Source: a virus
Strand: one strand, 5' to 3'
Virus record (IMG/VR): IMGVR_UViG_3300023220_000167
Coordinates: 1 to 35,119 of that record
DNA: 35,119 nucleotides
The notes under the pieces were generated by a model. The model ran no database searches. It had not been told where the DNA came from and saw only the letters and a program-made list of their open reading frames with translations. The translations under genes were made by a program, and so were the position numbers. Positions 1,403 through 35,119 of the stretch are shown here, piece after piece (position 1 is the stretch's first letter; the number at the start of each line of letters is the position of its first letter).

Positions 1403-1425
1403 AGTCCATGAAAATTTGTTATATT
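1403..1425 (+). promoter_or_regulatory. Extended -10 promoter for the first twin RNA
   Basis: TGTTATATT at 1417-1425 is an extended -10 (TGn plus TATATT). It sits in a 20-nt block nearly identical to the promoter at 34561-34583. The expected -35 position (1397-1402) reads GGAGAT, a poor match, so activity would rely on the extended -10 or an activator. Predicted start is at or next to G1431-G1432, exactly the base of the RNA stem. Confidence 0.55.
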
Positions 1426-1500
1426 TTATTGGGGGCTAGGTCAGGCCGACCGAAAAGCCGCAAGCCTCACGGCCCGCCCCTATCCCTTTTTTTTGAGTGA
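1408..1500 (+). CDS. Possible 30-aa leader peptide overlapping the structured RNA
   Basis: AAAAAGGAG followed 7 nt later by ATG (1408) is a very good ribosome-binding site, and the frame stays open for 30 codons to TGA at 1498-1500. The peptide is basic in the middle (RSGRPKSRKPHG) and ends in a hydrophobic run. The equivalent frame is not kept in the second RNA copy (no ATG, one-base length change, no stop), so coding is not what conserves this sequence. It could be a leader peptide in an attenuation device or simply coincidental. Confidence 0.25.
   Translation: MKICYILLGARSGRPKSRKPHGPPLSLFFE
1431..1494 (+). ncRNA. Twin structured small RNA, copy A
   Basis: About 64 nt. The outer stem is GGGGGC (1431-1436) with GCCCCT (1476-1481), hairpin 1 is GGTC/GACC (1439-1442, 1448-1451), and hairpin 2 is GCCG/CGGC (1457-1460, 1470-1473). 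A tract of eight T follows at 1487-1494. A second copy is at 34589-34649. Differences between copies keep pairing: G40-C50 becomes A-T, C42-G48 becomes T-G, and G31-T81 becomes A-T. Unpaired parts, including CGAAAA and the hairpin 2 loop, are almost unchanged. I do not recognise a known RNA family. It could be a free small RNA or a 5' leader. Confidence 0.7.
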
Positions 1501-1535: not shown

Positions 1536-1542
1536 TCGTCTT

Positions 1543-1617
1543 GGTGATGCTATCACAGTGTTCGAAAACTGATGCCTCGCTGGTTTACCTCTACCAGATC
1601 ACCAACCACTTTTTTTT
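1543..1617 (+). ncRNA. Structured leader or small RNA upstream of the replication initiator operon
   Basis: The outer stem GGTGAT (1543-1548) pairs with ATCACC (1598-1603) and can extend two pairs. Inside are CAGT/ACTG (1556-1559, 1568-1571) and CTGGT/ACCAG (1580-1584, 1593-1597). Eight T follow at 1610-1617. A rival hairpin GTGAT-GCT-ATCAC (1544-1556) uses the same 5' strand, so two folds are mutually exclusive. The segment GATGCCTC (1571-1578) is complementary, with one G-T pair, to GAGGCATT (1651-1658), the ribosome-binding region of the gene at 1661. The layout suggests attenuation and translational masking in cis, or antisense action in trans. Confidence 0.6.
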
Positions 1618-1660
1618 AGTGGTTTGATAAAGAGGGTGGTTTAATTAAAAGAGGCATTCA

Positions 1661-14962: not shown

Positions 14963-15279
14963 AGGAAGAAGCAGGCCGATTCTTCCCCTACGAAAAAGGT
15001 TTCGCCATAGCGATTGGCGAACTTGGTCTAACGCCTGAAATATATTGGGCCATGACCCCGCGTGAGTTGTTTCTTGCTGCTGATCATCGGCGACTGAATG
15101 AACGGGTGCAGACGACAACTGCTGCATGGCTTGCCGCTTATTATCAGAGAATGAAAAAGATGCCTGATTTAAAACATGAACTTTTAGGCATATCGAAACC
15201 GAAAAAACTGGCAAAAAGCGCATCCGATAACGCAAGAGAACAGATGGCTTTAATAGAGAAAATGGCGGAAAATGGTTGA
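14932..15279 (+). CDS. Tail assembly chaperone extension, probably made by -1 frameshift
   Basis: This frame is open from 14932 and its conserved-looking part starts before any ATG: AGRFFPYEKGFAIAIGELGL then EIYWAMTPRELFLAADHRRL. The first ATG (15052) would cut off half of it. It lies -1 relative to the chaperone gene, whose stop is at 14960-14962. The only suitable slip site between 14932 and 14959 is CCCC at 14950-14953. A G/GT-type fusion of two chaperone forms is well known in siphoviruses. The last bases overlap the tape measure start. Confidence 0.75.
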   Translation, partial: RRYRSGPHEVEEEAGRFFPYEKGFAIAIGELGLTPEIYWAMTPRELFLAADHRRLNERVQTTTAAWLAAYYQRMKKMPDLKHELLGISKPKKLAKSASDNAREQMALIEKMAENG

Positions 15280-17929
15280 TAGCAAAGTTGCAGAGGGGTT
15301 TGTTGAACTCACGCTCGATACAGGAACGCTGACCCGTGGACTGTCACGTGCGCAAAAATCAGTTACCCGCAGCCTTAAAAGCATTCAAGGGTCCGCCGAC
15401 CGGACGGGTAAAGCATTATCACTTGCCTTGACCGCCCCTTTACTTGCCGCCGGAATTGCCGCCGGAAAAACTGCTGCTACGTTCGAAACAAACATGGCTA
15501 AGATTGTAGGACTTGTTGGCTTGAGTGCTGAAGCGGTTGACGGGTTGGGAAAGTCTGTCTTGGAACTTGCCCCCGAAGTAGGCAAAGGGCCGATAGAACT
15601 TTCTGAGGCTTTATTTACGATCACATCAGCGGGGGCGCGTGGGCAGGAGGCCTTAGACCTTTTAACCGCATCCGCTAAAGCCGCAACGGCTGGTCTGGGG
15701 TTGACTGAGGATGTGGCAAAGACCACGGCCAGTGCCATGCAAGCCTTTTCCAAAGATAACCTTACGGCTGCTCAGACCATAGCAATACTTGTCAACATTG
15801 TGAGAAAAGGAAATGTTGAGGGCCGTGATTTGGCCTCAAGCTTTTCAAGGGTGACCGCCACGGCGGCTTCTCTGGGTCTATCACTTCAAGAAACTGGTGC
15901 GGCCATGGCAACGATTACGCTTACAGCCAGTGATGCCGCCATTGCCTCGACACAACTTGACGCGCTTTTCAGAGGGCTTGGGCGGTCCACGCCTGTATTC
16001 GATAAGGCATTAAAAAAACTCGGGTTGTCTTTTGAGGGCGTTCAAGCGCAACTTCAGCAAGAGGGGTTACTTGCCACCTTGCGAACCCTTCAGACGGAAG
16101 CGGAACGTACCGGCACACGTCTAAACGAGCTTTTTGTAGACAGTTCCGCCGCTGCTGGTGCTATGGCAATCTTGAATATTAATGCCGAAATAGTTGACGA
16201 CATTTTTAAAGCCTTAGCTGACACGACTGAAAATGATTTGGACAAGGCTTTTCGGGCCATAACCGATACGGGTGCATTTAAATTTACTCAAGCTTTGGTA
16301 AGTATTCAAACCGCATCAACACAATTAGGGCAAGTTATTTTACCGATATTGGCCCCTATTATTACCAAGATCGCGGCGGCTGTGGTTACGGCTGGTAATG
16401 CCTTTGCAGAATTGGCCCCGGAAATGCAAGAAACAATCTTAAACGGACTGGCCTTAGCCGCCGCCTTGGGTCCGGCTTTAATCATCATTAGCCTCATGGC
16501 TGGTGGGGCTGCTTCATTGGTAACTGGTTTAGGATTTTTGGCTAGAGGGCTTTTTGCTGTTGCCAAGGGGGCATTAACTGCTGTTGTTGTGCTTGGCGGC
16601 TTAATTACTCTTCCTGTAATAATTGGCGCGGCCATTGCCTCCACCCTTGCTGCCATTTTTCTTTTCAAGGATGCCATCGCGGATTCTTTTTCTGAAATAG
16701 GAATAATAATTAGTGGTGAATTTGAACTGGCTTTTGCAAAGACTATAAGATTTATTGATAATTTTACCACTGAAGCAGCTAAAAAGTTTGACACCTTAAC
16801 CACTGACATTGCCGAAGCAATCTTAGGCCTGCCCGGTAAGATAGACGAAGGTCTTGACGCTGTAGCTTTAATACTTTTTGAGTTGCCCGGTAAGGTTGTT
16901 GACGGGTTTGACACCTTAACCACCGACATTGCGGAAGCAATCTTAGGGGGGGCCGAGGGCGTAGCCGAAGGGATTGTTAAGGGAGCCGAGAGCGTTGTCG
17001 ATGGATTCGATACGGCAACCACTGACATTGCGGAAGGGATTGTTAAGGGGTTTGAAGCTGTAACCACTGTTGCCACGGATAAGCAAATTAAAGAGCTTGA
17101 AGAAAAGGTTGCCGCCGCCACGGATGGGTCTTCGAAGAAAGTCGCAGAAGCATTTTCTAGAGATTTTGAGGCAATTCTAGCCGGAGCCGGAGTTGCTTCT
17201 GACAAGATCAAAGAGATATTCAGCGGACTCCTTGACGATATCCCCGGCTTTGATGCGTTAGCAAATAAATTTCCCGAACTCGCCGGAAAACTCAAAGATG
17301 CAATAGCCGAATTGAACGAGTCAATCAGTTCAAAGTTTGATGAGACTTTGAAAAAATTGACTGGTGGAATCGACAATCTGGAAAGCAAAACCAAAGATAC
17401 CGCCAGTTCCATAAAGGATGTTTTCACGGATGTGAGTAGTTCAATATCCAGCAACATAACCAACGTGATTACCGGAGCAACGTCTGCCCTTGATGCCCTG
17501 CGGAATGTTGCGAACCAGATAATCGGGTCAATTATTTCCAGCATTATTGGATCACCAGACGGTGGCGGGTTTCTTGGCGACCTGTTTTCGTCAGCAAAAG
17601 GTAATGTCTTCAGTGGTGGCTCACCCGTTCCATTTGCGAATGGTGGGATTATTTCCGGCAGAACAACCTTCCCTATGGGCAATGGTGGTACTGGGCTGGC
17701 TGGAGAGGCTGGTAACGAGGCTATATTCCCCTTAAGCCGCGTGGCGGGGGGCAAGCTTGGCATCAGCGCGGAGGGTGTCAGTAATGATAATGTGGTCATC
17801 AACCAGATAAATAATTTCACACCAGACGTTAGAGCCACGGTCCGTGAAGAAATTGCCAACGCGGCATCACTTTTGATTAATGCGTCTAAACAGGCAACCA
17901 TTGCCGCATTGAGTGGGAGGCGGACTTGA
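15272..17929 (+). CDS. Tail tape measure protein
   Basis: 885 residues, the longest gene, and therefore the tail length ruler. The N-terminal 120 residues are the classical tape-measure start (LTRGLSRAQKSVTRSLKSIQ, FETNMAKIVGLVGLSAEAVDGL, ALFTITSAGARGQEALDLL). Two hydrophobic stretches near 395-450 (LGPALIIISLMAGGAASLV, VVVLGGLITLPVIIGAAIA) are probable membrane-interacting segments for DNA entry. Residues about 505-595 hold three copies of a repeat. The C-terminus (FANGGIISGRTTFPMGNGGTGLAGEAGNEAI) is the motif found where the protein docks at the tail tip. Confidence 0.95.
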   Translation: MVDSKVAEGFVELTLDTGTLTRGLSRAQKSVTRSLKSIQGSADRTGKALSLALTAPLLAAGIAAGKTAATFETNMAKIVGLVGLSAEAVDGLGKSVLELAPEVGKGPIELSEALFTITSAGARGQEALDLLTASAKAATAGLGLTEDVAKTTASAMQAFSKDNLTAAQTIAILVNIVRKGNVEGRDLASSFSRVTATAASLGLSLQETGAAMATITLTASDAAIASTQLDALFRGLGRSTPVFDKALKKLGLSFEGVQAQLQQEGLLATLRTLQTEAERTGTRLNELFVDSSAAAGAMAILNINAEIVDDIFKALADTTENDLDKAFRAITDTGAFKFTQALVSIQTASTQLGQVILPILAPIITKIAAAVVTAGNAFAELAPEMQETILNGLALAAALGPALIIISLMAGGAASLVTGLGFLARGLFAVAKGALTAVVVLGGLITLPVIIGAAIASTLAAIFLFKDAIADSFSEIGIIISGEFELAFAKTIRFIDNFTTEAAKKFDTLTTDIAEAILGLPGKIDEGLDAVALILFELPGKVVDGFDTLTTDIAEAILGGAEGVAEGIVKGAESVVDGFDTATTDIAEGIVKGFEAVTTVATDKQIKELEEKVAAATDGSSKKVAEAFSRDFEAILAGAGVASDKIKEIFSGLLDDIPGFDALANKFPELAGKLKDAIAELNESISSKFDETLKKLTGGIDNLESKTKDTASSIKDVFTDVSSSISSNITNVITGATSALDALRNVANQIIGSIISSIIGSPDGGGFLGDLFSSAKGNVFSGGSPVPFANGGIISGRTTFPMGNGGTGLAGEAGNEAIFPLSRVAGGKLGISAEGVSNDNVVINQINNFTPDVRATVREEIANAASLLINASKQATIAALSGRRT
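16789..17060 (+). repeat. Internal tandem repeats in tape measure gene
   Basis: The segment encoding FDTLTTDIAEAIL occurs near 16789 and near 16908 with few base changes. A third, more diverged copy (FDTATTDIAEGIV) lies near 17007. The nucleotide identity of the first two suggests recent duplication. Repeat number in tape measure genes changes tail length. Confidence 0.7.
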
Positions 17930-27930: not shown

Positions 27931-28108
27931 TTATTTTATCCCTTTTTCCTGAGTTATATTTATCAAATGTAGCTTGATGAAATCGGTTAACCTTATCCCG
28001 AACAGACGGGGCGGCTTTTAAGTGACATAAAATACCTTTTTCATAAGCAGTAGGATTTTTCTGCATCCGCCAAAGATTGATGACTTGCTTTATAAATTCC
28101 ATGCTCAT
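27920..28108 (-). CDS. Hypothetical protein (62 aa)
   Basis: 62 residues, basic, helical by appearance (MEFIKQVINLWRMQKNPTAYEKGIL). No recognised motif. The start overlaps the preceding stop by ATGA; the ATGAGC start is shared with most genes in this operon. Could be a small DNA- or host-protein-binding factor. Confidence 0.6.
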   Translation of the reverse strand: MSMEFIKQVINLWRMQKNPTAYEKGILCHLKAAPSVRDKVNRFHQATFDKYNSGKRDKINAT

Positions 28109-34554: not shown

Positions 34555-34583
34555 TTGAATGCCTCCTGAAAATTTGTTATATT
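34555..34583 (+). promoter_or_regulatory. Promoter of twin RNA copy B and dnaB
   Basis: TTGAAT (34555-34560), 17-bp spacer, TATATT (34578-34583), with TGT giving an extended -10. Predicted start at A34589-G34590, the first bases of the RNA stem. Shares the element TGAAAATTTG with the promoter at 1403. Confidence 0.8.
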
Positions 34584-34588
34584 TTATT

Positions 34589-34649
34589 AGGGGCTAGATT
34601 TAGCGATCGAAAAGCCGCAAGTCTCACGGCTCGCCCCTATCCCTTTTTT
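34589..34649 (+). ncRNA. Twin structured small RNA, copy B (dnaB leader)
   Basis: About 61 nt. The outer stem is AGGGGC (34589-34594) with GCCCCT (34633-34638). Hairpin 1 is GATT/GATC (34597-34600, 34605-34608), hairpin 2 is AGCCG/CGGCT (34613-34617, 34627-34631), and a U-tract lies at 34644-34649. The hairpin 2 loop GTCTCA (34621-34626) is complementary to TGAGAC (34649-34654) right after the U-tract. Located 23 nt before dnaB, so it can either terminate as a small RNA or be read through as the dnaB leader. Confidence 0.7.
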
Positions 34650-34672
34650 GAGACCAGCCAAAGGACACGGCT

Positions 34673-35119
34673 ATGTTACATTATAATATAGATGCAGAAC
34701 AGGCATATCTTGGCGCGGTATTGGTAAACAATGCGGCGATAACAGAGCAACTTAAACCATTCCATTTTATAGACCCTGCACACCAGAATATTTATACGGT
34801 AATACTTAGGGAGGTCAGCATTGGTAATGCACCGTCGCCCGTAACCTTGTTTCATATGCTGGAAGATGACCCCCTTTTAAGAGACGTTGGAGGCTCGGCA
34901 TATCTGGCTCGACTGGCCGGTGCGGCGGTATCAATTATTAATTCGTTAGGATATGCAGAAATCATCACGGGTTTGTGGAAACGGCGGGAGGTGACGAAAA
35001 TCGCCAATGAAACGATCCTGCTATTGCAAGAAGACAATGATCTTGATGACATTCTGGGAAATGTGGCCGCGTCCATTCATGCAGGTTCAGAAAGCGTGAT
35101 GATTTCTGCATATCCTAAC
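34673..35119 (+). CDS. dnaB: Replicative DNA helicase DnaB, N-terminal part (continues at window start)
   Basis: ATG 34673 with AAAGGAC about 8 nt upstream. Residues 1-110 are the DnaB N-terminal domain (DAEQAYLGAVLVNN, PFHFIDPAHQNIYTVI, DVGGSAYLARLAGA, SLGYAEIITGLWKRREV), which forms the collar and contacts loader and primase. The last true codons are near 35098. The final 21 bases are an inverted copy of upstream DNA and add eight spurious residues. The real protein continues at position 3 of the window. Confidence 0.94.
   Translation, partial: MLHYNIDAEQAYLGAVLVNNAAITEQLKPFHFIDPAHQNIYTVILREVSIGNAPSPVTLFHMLEDDPLLRDVGGSAYLARLAGAAVSIINSLGYAEIITGLWKRREVTKIANETILLLQEDNDLDDILGNVAASIHAGSESVMISAYPN
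35095..35119 (-). other. Foldback chimera at contig end
   Basis: 35095-35119 is the exact reverse complement of 34945-34969. The junction falls on a 4-nt shared sequence (CGTG at 35095-35098). This is typical of multiple-displacement amplification or library chimeras and not a biological terminus. Confidence 0.8.

Follow-up and report, generated by a model that had tools for sequence, protein, structure and literature searches.

In RNAs of the Rfam family int-alpA (RF02996), the loop of the 3' hairpin (H2) matches two sites downstream of the RNA, the second of which usually lies over the start of the next gene; this arrangement argues for a probable switching of early phage genes in the manner of the C4 RNA. 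As judged from sequence comparison, int-alpA RNAs probably control these genes via pairing of the H2 loop with both sites, which gives a concrete and testable function to a family for which no functional study was found. In the phage genome described here, a covariance model identifies two such RNAs, designated copies A and B; copy B is located directly in front of the replicative helicase gene dnaB.

Junction RNAs and their neighbors in the phage genome

The window, i.e. the whole stretch of 35,119 nucleotides that was analyzed, is a circular phage genome with a short overlap, positions 1-59 being repeated at 35040-35098. Given this end repeat and a circular genome, dnaB spans the junction and extends from 34673 to 959: its first part begins with ATG 34673 and reaches to 35119 on the plus strand, and the remainder occupies 1-959. 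The gene was assigned by means of the Pfam DnaB N-terminal domain (1.3e-20) and of PHROG DnaB (7.5e-77). The last 25 bases (35095-35119) are an exact inverted copy of 34945-34969, and the end of the window behind the circular overlap is likely a chimeric contig end. In another part of the genome, a 531-codon open frame (16306-17901, minus strand) runs antisense to an 885-aa ORF (15272-17929), which contains internal repeats of about 100-120 nt.

Two blocks of 86-89 nt, at 1409-1497 and 34567-34652, had been proposed in an earlier note to be twin structured RNAs with compensatory base changes. The blocks are real, with 78 of 89 aligned positions being identical, and so are the differences that preserve pairing: in hairpin H1, a G-C pair is replaced by A-U and a C-G pair by U-G, in the outer stem a G-U pair is replaced by A-U, and H2 of copy B contains an extra A-U pair. 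CGAAAA and the U-tract are seen in both copies. That the peptide reading frame is not conserved was also confirmed, as copy A possesses an ATG at 1408 and copy B a CTG instead. In contrast, the statement that no RNA family has this shape turned out to be wrong: the Rfam model RF02996 (gathering score 35.8) assigns both copies to int-alpA; they align end to end (model positions 1-71), copy A with a score of 47.8 bits and copy B with 41.9 bits. Both show the shape of this family, namely a three-way junction with CUAG, CGAAAAGC, H2, and CCUG. The location between int and alpA, from which the family is named, is not found here, since dnaB is the neighbor; however, it is a location and not a structural criterion for membership in RF02996. 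In the list of 25 Pfam families for 50 genes downstream of int-alpA RNAs, AlpA is absent as well.

The three-way junction which both copies had been predicted to form is borne out by their alignment to one Rfam model, whereas it is the fold of minimal free energy only for copy B. For copy A, an alternative fold reaches -21.5 kcal/mol and the junction -19.6 kcal/mol. As the stability of the copies is not unusual (z-values of -0.2 and -1.1) and the junction is not the preferred fold of copy A, the evidence for the structure comes from the covariance model and not from energy; free-energy folding was not significant and was dropped as evidence for either copy.

Copy B (34587-34653, plus strand), which is assigned by its RF02996 score and its fold, is preceded by a promoter-like site at 34555-34583 (TTGAAT-17-TATATT, with TG before the -10 box), as determined by a consensus scan that places the putative transcription start at about 34589-34590. 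The earlier claim that transcription starts coincide with the base of the stem agrees with this site, whereas copy A is devoid of a recognizable -35 box. In copy B, the outer stem (34588-34594/34633-34639) is followed by UA, by H1 (34597-34608), by GAAAA, and by H2 (34614-34630) with the loop CAAGUCUCA (34618-34626); the U-tract is located at 34644-34649. Site 1, UGAGAC (34649-34654), is perfectly complementary to the GUCUCA of the H2 loop. It is followed by a hairpin (34656-34672, stem AGCC/GGCU), whose loop AAAGGACAC exposes the Shine-Dalgarno (SD) sequence of dnaB. The pairing with site 2 is restricted to 4 nt (GUCU/GGAC). As read from the sequence, the order of promoter, junction RNA, U-tract, site 1, SD hairpin, and ATG fits the layout of the family. 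The identity of homologues to the dnaB and initiator of this phage does not exceed about 50%. In the vicinity of the nearest dnaB relatives that were searched (contigs G007-G009), no int-alpA RNA turned up, and none of the nine related or int-alpA-bearing contigs examined contained a dnaB-linked RNA.

Copy A (1429-1499, plus strand) consists of H1 (1439-1451), GAAAA (1452-1456), H2 (1457-1473) with the loop CAAGCCUCA at 1461-1469, and a U-tract at 1487-1494. It retains the scaffold with a higher RF02996 score than copy B; its site 1 is degenerate, offering only a 4-nt match (UGAG, 1494-1497), and it stands alone, with no ORF directly behind it. Copy A may be trans-acting or a relic. Among the sequences near the start codons of the window, no candidate for a trans target was clearly above the others, and a search of the window for perfect complements of the whole RNAs gave no convincing result. 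The best match, a 17-nt complement (including G-U pairs) of the 3' tail of copy A, is located at 27937-27953 (minus strand) just before a possible small ORF; this U-rich match may be due to chance. From 1408 to 1500, copy A is also read by an ORF of 30 codons, which has a good SD sequence (AAAAGGAG), and in the interval between dnaB and copy A a long, near-perfect hairpin (TTTTGTGGAGTGTG ... CACACTCCACAAAA) is found at 1134-1171, having an RNA fold z-value of -2.73.

The RNAs had been thought to precede both replication units. This applies to copy B in front of dnaB, whereas copy A is separated from the replication-initiator operon by a third three-way-junction RNA (RNA C; 1538-1618, plus strand, fold z-value of -2.36), which had been missed. 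The promoter-like site of RNA C (1507-1535, TTGAAC-17-TATAGT, with TG before the -10 box) resembles that of copy B. The RNA comprises an outer stem (1541-1548/1598-1605), H1 with CAGU/ACUG, a linker AUGCCUC (1572-1578), the H2 loop UUACCUCU, and a U-tract at about 1610-1617. Its putative targets are located at 1629-1657 on the same strand and consist of a site 1, AAAGAGG (1629-1635), and of the SD region AAAAGAGGCAU (1647-1657). The linker is complementary to GAGGCAU (1651-1657) at the SD sequence of a 69-aa ORF (1661-1870), and ACCUCU of the H2 loop is complementary to AGAGG at 1631 and 1650. The second gene behind RNA C, on the plus strand like the first, encodes a replication initiator/primosomal protein (1821-2768); inside this gene, repeated units of the GATAGGGCTATC type (2025-2310) are reminiscent of an iteron-bearing origin. 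For RNA C, no Rfam family matched at E ≤ 1 when the 741 bases around copy A and RNA C were searched, and it belongs to neither RF02996 nor C4. Its interpretation is tentative, because it is a single sequence for which no relatives were found.

Complementarity of the H2 loop to two downstream sites

The int-alpA set was compiled by a pattern scan of viral contigs, and later of viral plus GTDB genome contigs. It consists of 100 structured members, 66 of which have distinct H2 hairpins, in about 57 clusters; int-alpA RNAs were found in genomes of Pseudomonadota, Planctomycetota, and Bacillota. The earlier note had made its proposal dependent on homologues elsewhere, and these exist as about 57 non-redundant relatives in viral and bacterial contigs plus 30-33 held-out members. 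In nearly all members of the set, the H2 loop is complementary to the sequence right behind the U-tract (site 1). A perfect complement of at least 6 nt within 20 nt was observed for 58% of the 66 distinct H2 hairpins, compared with 4.5% for shuffled loops; the number of matching five-mers 0-9 nt past the U-tract was 96, compared with 7.5 when loops and tails were re-paired. Usually, the H2 loop has a second match (site 2), which is located at the SD sequence or the start codon of the next gene. At positions -20 to -6 relative to the start codon, 44 such five-mers were counted versus 8.5 after re-pairing; counting by cluster gave 27 of 54 versus 9.5 (maximum 17), half of the clusters being without a clear 5-nt site 2. 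Since re-pairing preserves the purine-rich character of SD sequences, site 2 does not reflect generic anti-SD matching. Moreover, in 40 of 67 members, as opposed to 9.1 in shuffles, the interval between site 1 and the start codon forms a hairpin whose loop contains the SD sequence.

These findings were reproduced with a held-out set, whose members were fetched by the covariance model and not by the pattern. Scores above the cut-off were reached by 14 of 385 genomes in the Alphaproteobacteria sample, 3 of 399 in that of Bacilli, and 39 of 369 in that of Gammaproteobacteria, the class names being those of named center genomes. Among 30 parsed members with new H2 hairpins, 90% had a match of at least 5 nt, compared with 25% after permutation, and twin sites occurred in 20 of 30, compared with 3.2 (at most 11 in any of 1000 permutations). 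These values agree with another parse, which covered 33 partly overlapping members (82% versus 21%). The latter parse, which was the first and stricter one, omitted 26 of 60 loci, and the parse of 30 members omitted 29 of 61; some of the omitted loci, e.g. L454, carry twin sites by eye. Permutation tests and the held-out set take the place of a formal pseudoknot count on the alignment, because the members of the family cannot be aligned in their 3' tails. Given a downstream complementarity far above permutation in two independent sets, which is accompanied by the co-variation described below, it is quite improbable that int-alpA RNAs are trans-acting small RNAs with unlinked targets (cf. the Rfam class 'sRNA') and that the downstream matches are incidental, although a promoter, a compact fold, and a U-tract are seen in some members and copy A stands alone.

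A U-tract (T-run) was detected in only 8 of 33 held-out members, and a terminated small RNA is therefore not universal in int-alpA. An intrinsic attenuator in front of dnaB, which acts by termination only, would agree with the U-tract that follows the stem in either copy of the window. This explanation is improbable, however, as the tract sits 4-5 nt off the stem in both copies, is missing in most of the held-out set, and leaves the conserved loop complementarity unexplained. The earlier proposal of a dnaB attenuator or regulatory small RNA goes in the right direction, and a regulatory structured RNA before replication genes is supported; the family itself is a known one. At locus L399 (about 1500-1570), which has no U-tract, the H2 loop CCUUG is complementary to CAAGG just before the start codon, constituting a single-site form. 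A 23.6-kb viral contig (G006, locus L246) contains three int-alpA RNAs; the fully parsed one has a loop of its own and a matching downstream site. In E. coli genomes, one prophage-type int-alpA locus gave no match and thus no direct K-12 context. In three related prophage-type loci, the sites are lost. In Acinetobacter phage vB_AbaS_qsb1, an int-alpA RNA and an AntB antirepressor gene form an insert amid tail genes, and the sites are lost.

Co-variation, downstream genes, and candidate mechanism

Loop, site 1, and site 2 co-vary across int-alpA members. In a prophage group located before rha-type antirepressor genes, a G in the loop is accompanied by C in sites 1 and 2 (13 cases) and an A by U in each of them (4 cases). 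All loci that possess the two sites follow this rule, and the site-2 change is a silent one (AAC/AAT). Similarly, loop, site 1, and site 2 read CUCAG/CUGAG/CUGAG in Aeromonas phage 4_4512 and CACAG/CUGUG/CUGUG in Aeromonas phage KLEA5. In 44 of 49 cases, the pairing with site 1 abuts the 3' end of the loop, which is the geometry required for an H-type pseudoknot. The same loop bases are used by both sites in 43 of 45 cases; consequently, the two pairings are mutually exclusive. The junction bases (C-UA-G, GAAAA, CCUG) are nearly invariant.

The genes downstream of int-alpA RNAs are early phage genes, i.e. genes for antirepressors, replication proteins, and homing endonucleases, and their start is located at a median distance of 26 nt past the U-tract. 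The 50 downstream proteins include HNH endonucleases (6), DUF1376 (5), Rha (3), and endonuclease VII (2), as well as the P22 antirepressor (P22_AR_N), KilA-N, DnaB, primase, GIY-YIG, and LAGLIDADG; the starts of the DUF1376 proteins can be read as resembling phage replication proteins. This arrangement also bears on the suggestion of an antiterminator similar to the put RNA of phage HK022, which binds RNA polymerase and favors read-through of downstream terminators. For int-alpA, this suggestion, which was made in the earlier note only, is in line with a structured RNA before early genes. It is nevertheless unsupported and has hardly any probability: the feature conserved in the family is that the H2 loop is complementary to the ribosome-binding region downstream, and the genes follow at once, which does not imply distant terminators.

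In the mechanism that we propose, one promoter would give rise to a small RNA, presumably terminated at the U-tract, and to a longer mRNA. The constant three-way-junction scaffold would present a variable H2 loop of about 9 nt, and pairing of this loop with site 2 would block ribosome binding and repress translation. Pairing with the adjacent site 1, which would form a pseudoknot in cis or an anchor in trans, would compete with the pairing at site 2 or guide it. The outcome would be the control of an early phage gene (an antirepressor, a replication protein, or a homing endonuclease; dnaB in this phage) and, furthermore, a probable immunity against phages sharing the same loop.

Concerning the mode of action, a constant scaffold with diverse loops favors a phage-specific recognition in trans, and the pseudoknot geometry as well as the members without U-tract favor a cis component. 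On balance, we lean slightly towards the view that int-alpA RNAs are widespread antisense/immunity RNAs of phages, in which about six exchangeable loop bases would recognize a decoy beside the RNA and the ribosome-binding hairpin of an early gene, without cross-regulation between phages that differ in these bases. A possible, though clearly less probable explanation is a leader switch that acts in cis only: the H2 loop would alternate between site 1 (pseudoknot) and the SD sequence (kissing interaction) of the same mRNA and play no role in trans, perhaps controlled by a ligand or protein which binds to the conserved junction. Pairings that abut the loop in the ideal manner of an H-type pseudoknot and exclude each other, the many members without U-tract, and the nearly invariant junction bases would all agree with such a switch. 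However, the loop varies in nearly every phage, which is needless for regulation in cis and needed for recognition in trans, and copy A keeps its scaffold without any cis target. The exchange of loops would be a simple test of the specificity of RNA-based phage immunity.

Comparison with known RNA systems

In the Rfam model RF02996, which is classified as sRNA, the 3' tail is unpaired; the model contains neither the SD hairpin nor the complementarity between the loop and sites 1 and 2. Among the known systems, IsrK of Gifsy-1 (RF01394) is similar in that one promoter generates a short RNA and a read-through mRNA, and in that complementarity between the two controls translation near an antirepressor (PMC4825925). 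It differs with respect to the pairing, which extends over about 30 nt and involves the coding part of orf45, and the short RNA is an activator (PMC4825925). IsrK belongs to a different family, and RF01394 gave no hit here. The leader upstream of C4 in phage P1 (L470, 131-212) matches isrK below the threshold (35.1 bits, as against a cut-off of 50), which hints at a relationship between IsrK and the c4-a1b1 leader. The CI RNA of satellite phage P4 confers immunity via pairing of the RNA to sites that flank it in the leader of the replication operon (PMC4825925). It acts through premature transcription termination, the RNA is processed, and no SD target is known for it.

The main comparison is that with the antisense RNA C4 of phages P1/P7 (RF01695). 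Like int-alpA, C4 is a three-way junction that shares a transcript with its target and is encoded shortly before it, with one target directly behind the RNA (a2), a second one at the SD sequence (b2), and b' in the H2 loop; as for int-alpA, the target leads to an antirepressor (PMC5320573). In the P1 record, C4 occupies 48343-48419 and is followed after 3 nt by a2 (48423-48429), by b2 (48452-48459), which is placed at the SD sequence of icd, and by icd at 48470. The H2 loop of the P1 junction carries b' (UCACUAAC, the complement of b2), and a' (CUGUCAA, the complement of a2) is located in the strand behind H2. A study of Acinetobacter reported that b' partly covers the ribosome-binding site and that a' binds the sequence upstream (PMC5320573). 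C4 differs from int-alpA in addressing each site with a segment of its own (a' or b'), whereas one loop serves both in int-alpA, and in being cut out by RNase P. With its two unpaired segments for two downstream sites, RNA C can tentatively be regarded as C4-like.

Complementarity to the SD region of the next gene, a feature of C4, is found at the level of the int-alpA family; copy B itself has 4 nt only. The model RF01695, with which P1 scores 68.8, gave no hit in the window at gathering, none in the 741 bases around copy A and RNA C at E ≤ 1, and none in 12 int-alpA loci at the curated cut-off. Thus, int-alpA would appear to work like C4, yet it is not filed as C4, because one loop is used and the covariance models do not cross-hit. 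This comparison points to a far wider counterpart of the C4-type RNA control known from P1/P7, one that would use a single loop for two targets and accompany antirepressors, replication proteins, and homing endonucleases.
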